DNA of 34,049 nt from a virus, in IMG/VR virus record IMGVR_UViG_3300049893_002886, positions 1-34,049 of that record. One strand, given 5' to 3'. Position numbers and translations under genes: made by a program. How positions within the stretch are numbered: the stretch's first letter is position 1; each line of letters opens with the position of its first letter. Under the pieces are notes generated by a model that saw only the letters and a list, made by a program, of their open reading frames with translations, did not search any database and was not told the origin of the DNA. Below are positions 2,685-10,449 of the stretch, piece after piece.

Positions 2685-3011
2685 TCAGTCCGCCTTCTTC
2701 TCCGCATGCCTGATGACCGCCTCGAGGGGGCCGTAGTCGGGCTTCTTCTTCTTGCGCATCTTCACGTCCTCGAGCACCCGGTGCCCCGCCGCGCTCACCC
2801 TCTGCCGCAGCAGGTTCCACGCGCAGCAGTCGCAGTGCTGCCCCTTGGCGACGCTCCGGTCGGCACCCCTGCAGCAGTACATGCAGTTGCCCTCGGCCGT
2901 GACCGGCACGCCCACGAGGAGCAGCGCCGCGGCAGCCTCGGTGATCGAAAGAAGGTGCTCGGCCATCTCGGCGCTGCTCGGGCCCTTCCTGCTGTCATTC
3001 TGGTCGGTCAC
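2685..3011 (-). CDS. Cys-rich zinc-binding-like protein, 108 aa
   Basis: The protein has a hydrophobic Ala/Leu stretch (about residues 23-37, ITEAAAALLLVGVPV). Six cysteines follow in two clusters, C43-x2-C46-C47 and C60-x-C62-C63, likely one or two zinc sites. The tail is basic with KKKK (about 87-90). The GTG at 3011 is chosen because GGAGGT lies about 7 nt upstream and the GTG overlaps the previous stop (GTGA). It is the last gene of the leftward run 4715->2685. No named family; the fold may be a small zinc ribbon. Confidence 0.65.
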   Translation of the reverse strand: MTDQNDSRKGPSSAEMAEHLLSITEAAAALLLVGVPVTAEGNCMYCCRGADRSVAKGQHCDCCAWNLLRQRVSAAGHRVLEDVKMRKKKKPDYGPLEAVIRHAEKKAD

Positions 3012-3244
3012 TTCACCACCTCCCGGGCTGCCTCGAGAACCGCCGCGCACGTTTCCTGCGTCTCTCCGTACCGTGCGGCATCGTGTACGCGCAGCGCATC
3101 GCGGAGCTTGGCGATCTTCTTGGACGCTGGCGCTCTGAATGCGTTGAATCCGATTGCCGCGGCCATCACCCCGACACCGAGACAGGCCATAAACATACCC
3201 GTTGCAACAAGCAACGACGCGACGTCTTGGACGCTGTTTAGCAT
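3008..3244 (-). CDS. Small membrane-anchored protein with C-terminal repeat module, 78 aa
   Basis: The N-terminal ~33 residues are hydrophobic (VASLLVATGMFMACLGVGVM...) and should span the membrane. The C-terminal half reads KKIAKLRDAL...VLEAAREVVK. That half resembles the C-terminal half of the upstream neighbour (KLAKLREAV...LLEAAREVVK), so the two look like partial paralogues. The ATG at 3244 overlaps the upstream stop (ATGCTAA). The terminal EVVK codons supply the GGAGGT ribosome site of the next gene. Function unknown. Confidence 0.7.
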   Translation of the reverse strand: MLNSVQDVASLLVATGMFMACLGVGVMAAAIGFNAFRAPASKKIAKLRDALRVHDAARYGETQETCAAVLEAAREVVK

Positions 3245-3624
3245 TTCACCACCTCCCGCGCTGCTTCGAGTAGCGCAGCAATGGCATCGCGTGTAGAGTG
3301 CTCTGTATCAAGGCACTTACACGCGTAATCTGTCGCCATTCCACGATTGCGTGGCCATAGACAGTTATTGCCGTAACAGCCTTTACCGATATCAGCATTA
3401 AAAGCGCCGACAGCCTCGCGGAGCTTGGCGAGCTTCGTCTGATATTCTTCGCGTACGGCTTCTGTCCCGCTCACGTAGCCCTCGTCCCAGCGCGAATCGG
3501 CTCGCTGTTGTAGCCGCTTGATTTCTCCTGCCGCCTCTTCGACGGTTGCAATCGAAGCGATACGGCCCTCGTACTCGTTCACCATCCCGAGAGCGCGGCA
3601 GAGTTCGATGTATGACTCATCCAT
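3238..3624 (-). CDS. Hypothetical soluble protein with Cys cluster, 128 aa
   Basis: The first two thirds are helical and charged (ATVEEAAGEIKRLQQRADSR, EEYQTKLAKLREAVGAFNAD). A Cys-containing loop follows (GCYGNNCLW...YACKC), then the C-terminal helix AIAALLEAAREVVKC shared with the next gene. A good ribosome site (GGGGAGGTGAAG) sits in the last codons of the upstream gene, 1 bp from its stop. The Cys arrangement could bind zinc. Parts of this gene look less GC-biased than its neighbours (around 3290-3420). No family recognised. Confidence 0.7.
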   Translation of the reverse strand: MDESYIELCRALGMVNEYEGRIASIATVEEAAGEIKRLQQRADSRWDEGYVSGTEAVREEYQTKLAKLREAVGAFNADIGKGCYGNNCLWPRNRGMATDYACKCLDTEHSTRDAIAALLEAAREVVKC

Positions 3625-3625
3625 C

Positions 3626-3907
3626 TCACTTCACCTCCCCAAGCGCGCGGTCGAGCAGGACGGCGAGGTGCTCTCCGTCACCGGTTTGGTCTGTTGCCTG
3701 TCGCGATGCTCGCATCAGAGTCTCGAATTCGTTACTCTCTCGTTCGTCATGCGCTTCACTCTCAAGCCACACCGCCACCGCCGCACATAGTCGCTCGATG
3801 AGCTGGGCTCGTGCCTTCTCACCTTCACAATCACAGCGCAGAATCTCCCGTGATTCTGCGTCAAGCCGCGTGCCATCTCCGTTGCATTTCTGACACTGCT
3901 CGGTCAT
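3626..3907 (-). CDS. Zinc-finger protein with DnaJ-type CxxCxGxG motif, 93 aa
   Basis: The N-terminus carries C5-QK-C8-N-G-D-G, an exact CxxCxGxG element as in DnaJ zinc centres, followed by C25-D-C27, which could complete a single zinc knuckle. Residues ~34-93 (LIERLCAAVAVWL ... GEHLAVLLDRALGEVK) are clearly paralogous to the whole upstream neighbour. It therefore looks like a tandem duplicate that gained or kept a zinc head. The start overlaps the upstream stop (ATGA) and uses GGGGAGGTG as ribosome site. Its role is unknown, perhaps an adaptor binding a host protein. Confidence 0.7.
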   Translation of the reverse strand: MTEQCQKCNGDGTRLDAESREILRCDCEGEKARAQLIERLCAAVAVWLESEAHDERESNEFETLMRASRQATDQTGDGEHLAVLLDRALGEVK

Positions 3908-4125
3908 GGCTGCACCTCCCCAAGCGCGGCGTCGAGTAGAATGGCGAGGTGCTCACCGCCACCGTTCGTGTTGGTGGCTTCTCGTGCAGCGTTCCACAGT
4001 TCTGAGCATCCGCCGTAGGAGATCGAATGAGCCTCTTCGCTGAGCCACTCCGCCACCGCAGCGCAGAGCTTCTCGACGAGCTGCCTGCGCTCCAACTCAC
4101 GCGACATTTTGAGTTTCGTGCTCAT
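3904..4125 (-). CDS. Small helical protein, paralogue of the downstream gene, 73 aa
   Basis: After a short charged N-terminus the protein reads LVEKLCAAVAEWLSEEAH and ends GGGEHLAILLDAALGEVQP, matching residues ~34-93 of the downstream 93-aa protein almost position by position. The pair arose by tandem duplication. The start forms an ATGA overlap with the stop of the MazG-Csx16 fusion gene, with a GGTGGGGG ribosome site in that gene's last codons, so the two are translationally coupled and may work together. No known family; helical with no visible catalytic motif. Confidence 0.7.
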   Translation of the reverse strand: MSTKLKMSRELERRQLVEKLCAAVAEWLSEEAHSISYGGCSELWNAAREATNTNGGGEHLAILLDAALGEVQP

Positions 4126-4715
4126 CCCCCACCAACCTTCACAACGATGTACTCGGCCGGTCCGCCGGCGAGCGTTCTGACCTGTTCCACTGAGAGCTCC
4201 TTGCCGCGCAGCTCGCGCGGTATATCGAGCGGAATCTCGACAACGCTCGCGGCGTGTGCGGCGAGATGCGTTGGAAGGTTTCCGATAACACGTTTGCCCT
4301 CGATTTCTGCCTTCGACGCGTGCTCGATCACCTTCGTATTGTCGTCGACGAGGCCTATCTCGCGCAGATAGAGAACGAGCGCTGAATGGCGTGTCACGAC
4401 GACCGTGTCGCGTGCATGCATCTCGAGGTGCGTGTCCCGCTCTCGTGACTTCGCCTCCTTTTTTGCTGCGTAGAAGGCGGCGTAGAGGGCGACATCGGCA
4501 GCCTCTTCCCAGGCTCGGCTGCCTGTCGCATCCAGGAGTTCCTCCGCCTCGAGGATGATGCCACCGTAGAGATTGTCCATGTCCTCGTCCTTCCAGTGGC
4601 GCTTGTCCGCGTTGCGCTCGAGCGCCGCCTGCGCCGCCTGCGCGAGGCGGGCGACGATGGGGTGGACCGTGATGGGCACGTTCGTGCGCGCGTCGCGCGG
4701 GGACATTGGACTCAT
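4122..4715 (-). CDS. MazG-like NTP pyrophosphohydrolase / Csx16 (VVA1548-family) fusion, 197 aa
   Basis: Two domains are visible. Residues ~17-95 are all-helical with the MazG metal-binding pattern, E56-AE-E59 followed by E71-AA-D74 in LEAEELLDATGSRAWEEAAD. This family hydrolyses NTPs to NMP and PPi. Residues ~103-194 match the CRISPR-associated Csx16 family: VVVTRHSALVLYL (104-116), VIGNLPTHLAAHA (143-155), then PLDIPRELRGKELS (162-175). Csx16 genes normally sit in type III CRISPR loci, and family members have been reported as ring nucleases that cleave cyclic oligoadenylate. The ATG at 4715 has GGAG 5 nt upstream; an in-frame ATG at 4706 is the alternative. It is first in a coupled leftward run of six genes. 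Inference: a phage counter-signalling enzyme. Domain calls are by eye, and the fusion is the odd feature. Confidence 0.75.
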   Translation of the reverse strand: MSPMSPRDARTNVPITVHPIVARLAQAAQAALERNADKRHWKDEDMDNLYGGIILEAEELLDATGSRAWEEAADVALYAAFYAAKKEAKSRERDTHLEMHARDTVVVTRHSALVLYLREIGLVDDNTKVIEHASKAEIEGKRVIGNLPTHLAAHAASVVEIPLDIPRELRGKELSVEQVRTLAGGPAEYIVVKVGGG

Positions 4716-7478: not shown

Positions 7479-9392
7479 ATCGAGCCGAGGGACATCATAC
7501 GCCACTGTCGCGAGATCGCGACCGAGGCCGGGAAGGATCCCGACCAGTTCGAGGCGAACCCGCTCGACTTCTTCGACCTCATCCGCGACATCATCAAGGA
7601 ATGGCCACGAGGGAAGCTCGAGCGAATCCCATGGGCTCGAGATTTCGCCATCGGCCTGCGCAAGCTGCGTGATGATTTTGAGGCGGAGGTCCGCGCCGAC
7701 CCGCTCCTACTCTACAAGCCGGCCCACCATGTCGCGCTCGAGTTTCATCAGAGCGCGGCGCGCATCCGCTACTACCGCGGCGGAAACCGTATCTCGAAGA
7801 CCCAGGCGGGTCTCTGGGACAACTACGCGGTTATGACAGGCTGTCACCCGTGGCGGGCGAAGACGCCCATGCCATCGAGTGTCGCGGTCATCGGCGTGAA
7901 CTTCTCGAAGTATGCTCCGACTGTCTTCGAGACGAAGTACGTGTACGGCGAGAACGGCAACCCGCTGTCCCCAGCGTTCCCGGAGGGCGGCAAATGGTTC
8001 AACCGCTACGACACGAAGAAGCACATCCTCTATATCGCGTGCCCGGAGTGCGCAGCTGCGAAAAAGGCGATGCAATGCAAGCACCCGCGGTCGAGCATCG
8101 TGTTGTTCTCCGACACCGAGGGGCCGGCGGTTCTCCAGGGCGGGCAGTACGCGCAGATTCAGTTCGACGAGCAGATTGACTACGCGTTTCTTGGCGAGGC
8201 GTTAAAGCGTCTCGAGACGGTCCCGAACAGCGGTCTCGTCGTGACCGAGACGCCGCTCAATGGCAAGGGCTGGTGGACGAACACAGTGCTCGCTCGCGAC
8301 GCCGCGGCGGGCAAGAAGATCGAAGGCACAGGCCAGCCGCTCGTCTCGCTGCACACCATCGACCAGTTCGAGGCTGGGCTAACCCCGCACCACATCATCA
8401 AGGCGGACATGGAGCTCATGAGCCCCGCCGAGATCGAGGCGCGGGTGTACGGGCGGCCCGCCGCGTTCAACGAGATGGGGGTCTTCGACACGTGGGAGAT
8501 CTCCGCGATGCTCGAGGAGGCGGTCGACCCGGTGCGCGGGGAGATCTACTTCGAGCAGGAGCGGGCGGCGACTGGCTCTCTGCCATCCGCGACGCTCATG
8601 CACGCGCTCAAGCCATCGATGCCGATGCTCTTCGACGAGAAGGCCGATGGCTCCTTACGCCTCTGGAAGCGACCAGAGCCCGGGCGGCAGTACGTCATCG
8701 GTGGCGATGTGGCGCAGGGCCTGACTCACCGCGATCCGTCGTGCGCGTCGGTACTCGAGCTCAGCCTCAGCAACCACGATGTCTGCTTCGAACTGGTCGC
8801 GCAGTTGCACGGCTGGATGAATCCGCGCCTCTACGCGGAAGACCTGATCAAACTGGCGATATGGTACAACGAGGCGCTCGTCGTGATCGAGCGCAACGGA
8901 CCAGGAGCCGAGGCGATTCGGAGCATGGTCGAGTGGGGCTACTGGAATCTGTTCCAAGACATCTCCGATCCGGCGCAGTCGCAGTTCGGCATGGATCCGC
9001 TCTACGGCATCAACACCGACCGAGCGAGCAAACCGGTCATGGTGGCGAGTCTGCAGCAGACGGTCAAAGACAAGCGCAGCGGCCGGCGCATGATCACCAT
9101 CCCGTGCCGTGACACTCTCGACGAGATGGGGTCGTTCGGTCAGGTTGTGACGCCATCTGGGAAGTCGATCACGTTCCAGGGCGCGCCAGGGATGGCGGAC
9201 GACCGTGTGATCTCGCTCATGGTACCAGTCTACGCGGCGAAGGTGTTCGGTGTGTACGACGTCGCAGCTGATGCGCGAGCCGCACAGAAGAAGGCGATGG
9301 AAGCGCTAGCGCCGCACGAGCGCGCCATCTGGGACGACATCAGGCGTCGCGACAGCGAGATGGCACAGGAGGCTAGCCGTGCATGGTACTGA
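7479..9392 (+). CDS. terL: Terminase large subunit (ATPase and nuclease), about 637 aa
   Basis: Packages DNA into the prohead. Numbered from 7479: Walker A GGNRISKT (101-108), Walker B QIQFDE (D230), coupling motif TETP (256-259), then the RNase H-like nuclease with acidic residues in VIGGDVAQG (D409), VVIERNG (E470) and MADDRVIS (D573/D574). A CPEC...CKH element (~187-202) may bind zinc. The frame is open from 7455, but the first ATG (7833) lies after Walker A and no ATG, GTG or TTG precedes it, so the true N-terminus must be unusual. Candidates are ATC 7479, ATC 7494 or ATA 7497 (after GAGGG), or a -1 shift on five G from the upstream gene. The call is secure; the start is not. Confidence 0.92.
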   Translation: MEPRDIIRHCREIATEAGKDPDQFEANPLDFFDLIRDIIKEWPRGKLERIPWARDFAIGLRKLRDDFEAEVRADPLLLYKPAHHVALEFHQSAARIRYYRGGNRISKTQAGLWDNYAVMTGCHPWRAKTPMPSSVAVIGVNFSKYAPTVFETKYVYGENGNPLSPAFPEGGKWFNRYDTKKHILYIACPECAAAKKAMQCKHPRSSIVLFSDTEGPAVLQGGQYAQIQFDEQIDYAFLGEALKRLETVPNSGLVVTETPLNGKGWWTNTVLARDAAAGKKIEGTGQPLVSLHTIDQFEAGLTPHHIIKADMELMSPAEIEARVYGRPAAFNEMGVFDTWEISAMLEEAVDPVRGEIYFEQERAATGSLPSATLMHALKPSMPMLFDEKADGSLRLWKRPEPGRQYVIGGDVAQGLTHRDPSCASVLELSLSNHDVCFELVAQLHGWMNPRLYAEDLIKLAIWYNEALVVIERNGPGAEAIRSMVEWGYWNLFQDISDPAQSQFGMDPLYGINTDRASKPVMVASLQQTVKDKRSGRRMITIPCRDTLDEMGSFGQVVTPSGKSITFQGAPGMADDRVISLMVPVYAAKVFGVYDVAADARAAQKKAMEALAPHERAIWDDIRRRDSEMAQEASRAWY

Positions 9393-9693
9393 GATAGCGC
9401 TCATTGTCACAACGATGTCGAGCCTCGTGTTCGGCGTGCTCTTCGTGTGGCACGCACGCGGGGAGCGGGCGGCTGTTTCGAAGCTCGTCGACAGCGCGCT
9501 CGCACACATGGTCGCGCGCAACCCGCGCGAGGTTGCCGAGGCGGATTCCTTGCGCGCCTACGAGGCCGAGGCCGTCAGGCAGGCGCGGGAGGCGTTCGAG
9601 GAGCAGCGCAGACAGAAGCCACAACCACATGAGCCGAGAGAGGTGGCGAGAGCCATTGACGCCCGCGGCCAAGAGTTCCGCATCCTGGAGTGA
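9379..9693 (+). CDS. Small N-terminally anchored membrane protein, 104 aa
   Basis: The GTG at 9379 has an ideal AGGAGG 7 nt upstream and overlaps the terminase end by 14 bp. Residues ~5-24 (EIALIVTTMSSLVFGVLFVW) form one transmembrane helix; the rest is a charged helical domain (AEADSLRAYEAEAVRQAREAFEEQRRQ) ending GQEFRILE. This topology recalls i-spanins or small packaging-associated membrane proteins, but placement between terminase and portal does not fit a lysis cassette. Function unknown. Confidence 0.65.
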   Translation: MHGTEIALIVTTMSSLVFGVLFVWHARGERAAVSKLVDSALAHMVARNPREVAEADSLRAYEAEAVRQAREAFEEQRRQKPQPHEPREVARAIDARGQEFRILE

Positions 9694-9696
9694 GCC

Positions 9697-10449
9697 ATGC
9701 CCAAGGTCGATTGGACGGACGAACTCGGCCTGCAGGGCGTTCTGCAGCGGCCGGCGCGCTTCGATGATCCTACGGCCGGCCTGATGGCGGTCACCAGTCG
9801 TCTCATGAGCGCGAGAGCCCGTGAGGAGGAGGAGCCGCAGTACTCCTCGTGGGGAGACATCGGCGACGGCAAGTACGACCCAGAGAATCCATATGGGCCC
9901 GGAGACGTGCAGCGCACGGCGCTGTTCGCCACCGAGGTCGCGACTACCAAACCAGACACGGACGTCGAGGATGTCGAAGACGCATCCGACGCGGACGAAG
10001 AGCAGGAGGGAGAGATGTTCGGAGCTCCGAAGTTTCAGCAGCGCGGACCGGCACGTGGTTTCGATTTCGGCGGTCGCGGTGGCTACGCGCCCGAGATGGA
10101 TATGTCGAACCCCTACGACTTCTCTGGTGAGCAGGCTGTCGGCGACCCGTTCGGCACCATGGATTTCGGTGAGCAGGGGGGGGTGTCCGGGATGGAATAT
10201 GGCGCACCGCCGATGGACTTCCAGGGGCAGGGTGGCGTGGGTGGCATGGAGTACGGGGCACGGCCGATGGACTTCCAGGGGCAGGGTGGCGTGGGTGGCA
10301 TGGAGTACGGGGCACGGCCGATGGACTTTGGAGGCCAGGGGGATTACCCACAGAACATCGACACGCGGATGGGCCCAGAAGAACAGCGCATGCTGATGCT
10401 GCGTGCGATCAAGGCGAGGCTGAATTCGGACCGACCGACGGCCCGCTAA
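9697..10449 (+). CDS. Acidic, Gly-rich repeat protein before the portal, 250 aa
   Basis: The N-terminal ~80 residues are mixed polar, followed by a very acidic stretch (TDVEDVEDASDADEEQEGE). A Gly/Met/Tyr/Gln-rich half follows, made of an 18-residue unit (MDFQGQGGVGGMEYGARP) repeated two times exactly plus degenerate copies on both sides. The end, PEEQRMLMLRAIKARLNSD, is helical. Most of it should be intrinsically disordered. It abuts the portal gene by 4 bp and follows the terminase, so a head-assembly or DNA-packaging accessory role is likely. No family recognised. Confidence 0.65.
   Translation: MPKVDWTDELGLQGVLQRPARFDDPTAGLMAVTSRLMSARAREEEEPQYSSWGDIGDGKYDPENPYGPGDVQRTALFATEVATTKPDTDVEDVEDASDADEEQEGEMFGAPKFQQRGPARGFDFGGRGGYAPEMDMSNPYDFSGEQAVGDPFGTMDFGEQGGVSGMEYGAPPMDFQGQGGVGGMEYGARPMDFQGQGGVGGMEYGARPMDFGGQGDYPQNIDTRMGPEEQRMLMLRAIKARLNSDRPTAR
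10159..10341 (+). repeat. 54-bp tandem repeat within the acidic repeat gene
   Basis: Unit 10213-10266 and unit 10267-10320 are identical over all 54 bp. A diverged copy precedes them (10159-10212) and a partial diverged copy follows (from 10321). All stay in frame and each encodes 18 residues. Exact identity including third positions suggests a recent duplication or ongoing unequal exchange. Confidence 0.85.

Follow-up and report, generated by a model that had tools for sequence, protein, structure and literature searches.

A phage gene encoding a MazG-like domain fused to Csx16, a candidate anti-type III CRISPR protein

A gene on a phage contig encodes a 197-aa protein in which a MazG-like domain precedes a Csx16 ring-nuclease domain, and this protein probably acts against type III CRISPR by degrading cyclic tetra-adenylate (cA4), with a MazG-like NTP pyrophosphatase working in parallel. 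The gene occupies positions 4122..4715 (minus strand) of a 34,049-base virus contig, called the window hereafter; it starts with the ATG at 4715, 5' of which lies a Shine-Dalgarno-like ACGGAG. The two domains were recognised by homology, and both keep their conserved residues; the activity of the protein, its anti-CRISPR role and the substrate of its MazG-like half are inferred. One Csx16 degrades cA4 in vitro and is inactive on cA3 and cA6 (PMC12409355), in agreement with the ring-nuclease activity stated in an initial annotation of this DNA, and given this published specificity a phage cA4-degrading protein is the best explanation of the gene. The Csx16 half would bind and cleave cA4, the signal from Cas10 of type III CRISPR, so that cA4-activated effectors would stay off during infection. 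The MazG-like half would act alongside it as a metal-dependent NTP pyrophosphatase, with a nucleoside triphosphate or an alarmone as its substrate, and its helices may also pair the protein, bringing two Csx16 domains together into a single cA4 site.

Judged from its gene content, the contig is a phage: proteins of the window matched terminase, portal, major head, and tail or internal virion proteins. The fusion gene is the first of six ORFs in a leftward run that extends from 4715 to 2685. Its end overlaps by 4 nt (ATGA) a 73-aa ORF (3904..4125, minus strand), which overlaps, also by 4 nt, a 93-aa ORF with a Cys-rich N-terminus (3626..3907, minus strand); these two ORFs are paralogous, sharing 56% identity across 64 aa. 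The run continues on the same strand with a 128-aa ORF (3238..3624), a 78-aa ORF whose N-terminus is hydrophobic by eye (3008..3244) and, as its last member, a 121-aa ORF (2685..3050). Both the phage origin and the place of the gene at the head of a coupled leftward run had been proposed in the initial annotation, and both stand. Family searches with the five other ORFs of the run returned no match. The 128-aa and 78-aa ORFs have a C-terminal part in common (34% over 71 aa). On the other side, the divergent neighbour of the fusion gene is a phage DNA N-6-adenine methyltransferase (Dam, PF05869; 4837..5442, plus strand). No RAMP gene was found in the window, which thus does not place the gene in a type III CRISPR locus; this argues against the role of a host ring nuclease, and such a location is not required for membership of the domain family. 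Elsewhere in the window, an ORF at 9697-10449, between the terminase and portal genes, contains repeated MDFxGQGGVGGMEYGAxP units.

The C-terminal half (4128..4406, minus strand; residues 104-196) is, by profile and motif, a Csx16 domain. Residues 106-190 matched the Pfam family PF09652 (Cas_VVA1548) with an E-value of 1.6e-18 and 67.1 bits (cut-off 25), and the PADLOC Csx16 model matched the fusion protein at 1.5e-17; the NCBIfam model TIGR02620 scored 27.9 bits on the same stretch, under its cut-off of 46.35, and the domain was therefore considered a divergent member. In an alignment with 39 relatives, all invariant and nearly invariant Csx16 positions are kept in the window protein (V107, R109, H110, H132, G140, V143, G145, L147, P148, L151, R170, G171, E173, L174, Y189, V191), including the TRH, GxLPxxLA and RGxELS motifs and H132. 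As the catalytic residues of Csx16 are not established, conservation by itself is no proof of activity. In these conserved residues the domain is like the Csx16 of type III systems, and it is ~30-45% identical to members from cells and plasmids, but the window gene differs in that a phage carries it, not in a CRISPR locus, and that a MazG-like domain is joined to the Csx16. The AlphaFold model of this half has a pLDDT of 92-98 across most of the Csx16 domain. Its structural neighbours include cA4/cA6-bound Cam1, Csx1-Crn2 and the CARF domain of Cad1, at scores so weak (Z ~3.6-4.2) that little weight was given to the likeness of the models.

The N-terminal domain (4422..4715, minus strand; approximately residues 17-97) carries the pattern E56xxE59 ... 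E71xxD74. Pfam MazG (PF03819) did not match the window protein, and the N-terminal half alone, used as a query against phages and viral contigs, found no relatives. Short phage proteins related to it were recovered with a DNA pattern for the motif WxEAADVA, and those that also have an upstream ExxE gave the top scores against the window domain. Among the remaining ORFs with the WxEAADVA motif even the best scored lower, although the lowest-scoring MazG-like proteins come close to it. Pfam MazG matched two of these phage relatives, weakly (best E-value 0.0064). Across the nine aligned phage sequences E56, E59, E71 and D74, the putative metal site, are invariant, the gap between the ExxE and ExxD motifs being 11 residues in the window protein versus 13 in its nearest relative. 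A profile built from the eight relatives, with the window sequence left out, scored 45.2 bits on the window domain. Since the search pattern selects for the motif itself, the comparison was repeated with WEEAADVA masked and gave 23.7 bits, the maximum over shuffled sequences (n=1920) being 8.9.

When the nine-sequence profile was compared with the PDB, the top matches were 2p06 (AF_0060, MazG-like; E 2e-4) and the PRA-PH domain of MtHISN2 (E 6e-4). A separate model of the N-terminal domain (pLDDT 85) has the helical fold expected, with 2p06 again as best match (Z 9.2, rmsd 2.7, 75 residues), and the top 23 rows of a Foldseek search are all-alpha NTP pyrophosphatases (DCTPP1, HisIE, MazG-related proteins and the S-2L MazG), with weak individual E-values. 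A Foldseek search with the model of the entire protein gave no informative neighbours. Taken together, the phage relatives, the motif-masked control, the PDB profile matches and the AlphaFold model assign the domain to the all-alpha NTP-pyrophosphatase superfamily, as a MazG-like member and not as MazG proper. The initial annotation had named the two halves MazG and Csx16 and proposed Pfam and AlphaFold comparisons as checks. Its Csx16 half and its ExxE...ExxD pattern were both recovered; its MazG domain holds at the level of the superfamily but not of the Pfam family.

Viral relatives of the Csx16 half bear on its function. The union of two IMG/VR scans gave csx16 on 58 viral contigs besides the window, and a terminase profile matched 27 of 57 viral csx16 records. 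No type III locus was recognised by the RAMP search of 43 such records; the single one with a RAMP gene carries type IV csf2 with csf3 adjoining. This contig (L008), whose Csx16 is among the closest relatives of the window domain (61%), encodes the type IV Cas7 (csf2, E 1.8e-74) and Cas5 (csf3, E 6.4e-53) at 8064-9711, ~2.4 kb downstream of csx16. A viral Csx16 group found without type III loci lends further weight to the anti-type III reading. It was also considered whether Csx16 acts on another cyclic-nucleotide defence, for example on a CBASS-type signal. Phages carrying viral csx16 are unrelated in their make-up, which would leave room for such a target, but the assayed Csx16 acts specifically on cA4, with no activity towards cA3 or cA6 (PMC12409355), and this proposal was judged highly improbable.

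A tree of 59 Csx16 domains, 30 of them viral, was built on few columns. It places 28 of the 30 viral domains in one half (support at the fork 99/88), together with sequences from Meiothermus, a Deinococcus plasmid and a MAG contig bearing a recombinase; the other half holds most of the cellular, Pseudomonadota-type Csx16. The viral label requires four changes on the tree, and with so few columns clustering is claimed and a single origin is not: on sequence, most viral Csx16 cluster apart from the sampled Pseudomonadota Csx16. The window domain lies in the mostly viral cluster and has the signature VTRHPALVxYLRE, by which it differs from CRISPR-associated Csx16. Very few neighbouring genes are common to viral csx16 loci, mostly between near-identical contigs, which suits an accessory gene moving among unrelated phages.

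For the contribution of the MazG-like half, three proposals were weighed beside parallel action. In the first, put forward in the initial annotation, the two sites work in sequence, Csx16 opening a cyclic oligoadenylate and MazG degrading the product or an alarmone; in a variant, MazG removes ATP or the linear 5'-triphosphate oligoadenylates made by Cas10. Domain fusion often reflects a shared pathway, and the MazG-like Atd1 has been reported as an anti-defence protein (PMC10419184). Against this, the products of ring nucleases end in a 2',3'-cyclic phosphate (PMC12409355) and offer MazG no alpha-beta pyrophosphate, so that sequential action is chemically unlikely and the two sites would instead work side by side; moreover, Pfam MazG had no match over 30 whole viral csx16 records, nor did the N-terminal profile over the same 30 in a search run without a positive control. 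This proposal was considered very unlikely.

The second proposal is a nucleotide-pool enzyme, whose MazG half would clear (d)NTPs for phage replication while the Csx16 half senses or binds a nucleotide, as an allosteric site or a sponge, without cleaving cA4. Cyanophage MazG prefers dGTP and dCTP and neither binds nor hydrolyses (p)ppGpp (PMC6850273), and cyclic-nucleotide sponges exist in phages, such a role having been considered for Csx15 (PMC12409355). The retention of all conserved Csx16 residues speaks against it, as does the fact that viral Csx16 usually occurs alone, without a pool enzyme, and the proposal is unlikely. In the third, a two-enzyme counter-signalling protein would destroy cA4 and also clear either another nucleotide signal or the triphosphates from which the signal is made, disarming both the CRISPR alarm and an alarmone or abortive response; this reading is regarded as unlikely. 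The phage protein Atd1 reportedly degrades (p)ppGpp (review PMC10419184). The MazG half of the window protein may act on dNTPs, as in cyanophages, on an alarmone, as reported for Atd1, or only in protein dimerisation.

The fusion itself is known from a single metagenomic contig, and one feature of the gene could alter its product by an indel error or by ribosomal slippage: an A6 run (A AAA AAG; 4464..4469, minus strand), in frame and located 14 codons ahead of the domain junction. The heptamer is followed by GAGG, and a site of this type is used for programmed slippage in dnaX. In the window the -1 frame at the run is open for 184 codons and continues into the next ORF; no evidence for such use of the heptamer was seen. 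Alternatively, a single-base assembly error in the run might have joined a MazG-like gene and an overlapping stand-alone csx16. Loss of one base would make the first gene stop, in the +1 frame, about 20 codons past the run, just beyond the in-frame Met99 from which Csx16 would start, and Met99 is where stand-alone viral Csx16 proteins start; the fusion was also absent from every other locus searched. However, Met99 has no Shine-Dalgarno-like site, unlike the ATG at 4715, and in the model a single helix spans residues 66-100. Six-base runs are rarely wrong in short-read assemblies, which also counts against such an error. Two separate genes, which would leave the anti-CRISPR role standing but not the fusion, were therefore considered quite unlikely.

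Searches for a second example of the fusion covered phages and viral contigs. The full-length protein had no relatives over its whole length, a MazG-like domain was neither fused to viral Csx16 nor encoded within the flanks fetched, and a capsid search of the viral contigs revealed no sister phage. None of the papers searched names Csx16 together with MazG. Within what could be searched, the MazG-Csx16 fusion and the size of the viral Csx16 group appear to be new. Phage Csx16 as such was already known. AcrIII-1 is by far the commonest ring nuclease reported from phages, and Csx16 was reported in just two of 28,114 phage genomes (PMC12409355). In a search of a phage collection, the sole Csx16 was that of Methanobacterium virus Drs3. 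It is likewise viral, and the stretch of Drs3 that was read has no other annotated CRISPR gene, but its Csx16 stands alone and lies far from the window domain in the tree.

AcrIII-1 (viral Crn2, DUF1874) resembles the proposed protein as a viral ring nuclease clearing cA4; it belongs to a different family, however, and its anti-CRISPR activity has been tested, whereas that of the window protein is predicted. The N-terminal half is like the MazG proteins of S-PM2 and S-2L and the anti-TIR protein Atd1 in having an all-alpha NTP-pyrophosphatase domain with ExxE...ExxD, but none of these is joined to a ring nuclease, and the window domain has diverged beyond the reach of the Pfam MazG profile. 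Csx16 is also a module of multidomain proteins in CARF-HEPN-Csx16 and CARF-Csx16-TM (PADLOC PDLC01842 and PDLC01940); these are host CRISPR proteins with CARF, whereas the partner in the window is a phage-encoded pyrophosphatase. If active when tested, viral Csx16 would give phages a second widespread type of counter-defence based on cA4 degradation, and phage cA4-degrading enzymes would be seen to combine with NTP pyrophosphatases and other modules.

Viral Csx16 proteins are mostly stand-alone, and some have other extensions. By eye, the N-terminal parts resemble a winged helix in one protein (L128), a helix-hairpin-helix in another (L119) and a zinc ribbon in three (L125, L135, L036). On two contigs an ORF with two diverged Csx16 domains adjoins an intact csx16 (L039:3988-5282 and L123:3001-4296), and in L039 a serine-recombinase-like gene is located nearby. 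A tandem pair of Csx16 domains is also present in Meiothermus-type proteins (L003:2992-3777 and L040:4881-5783); L003 is on a plasmid, beside a conjugative-transfer gene.
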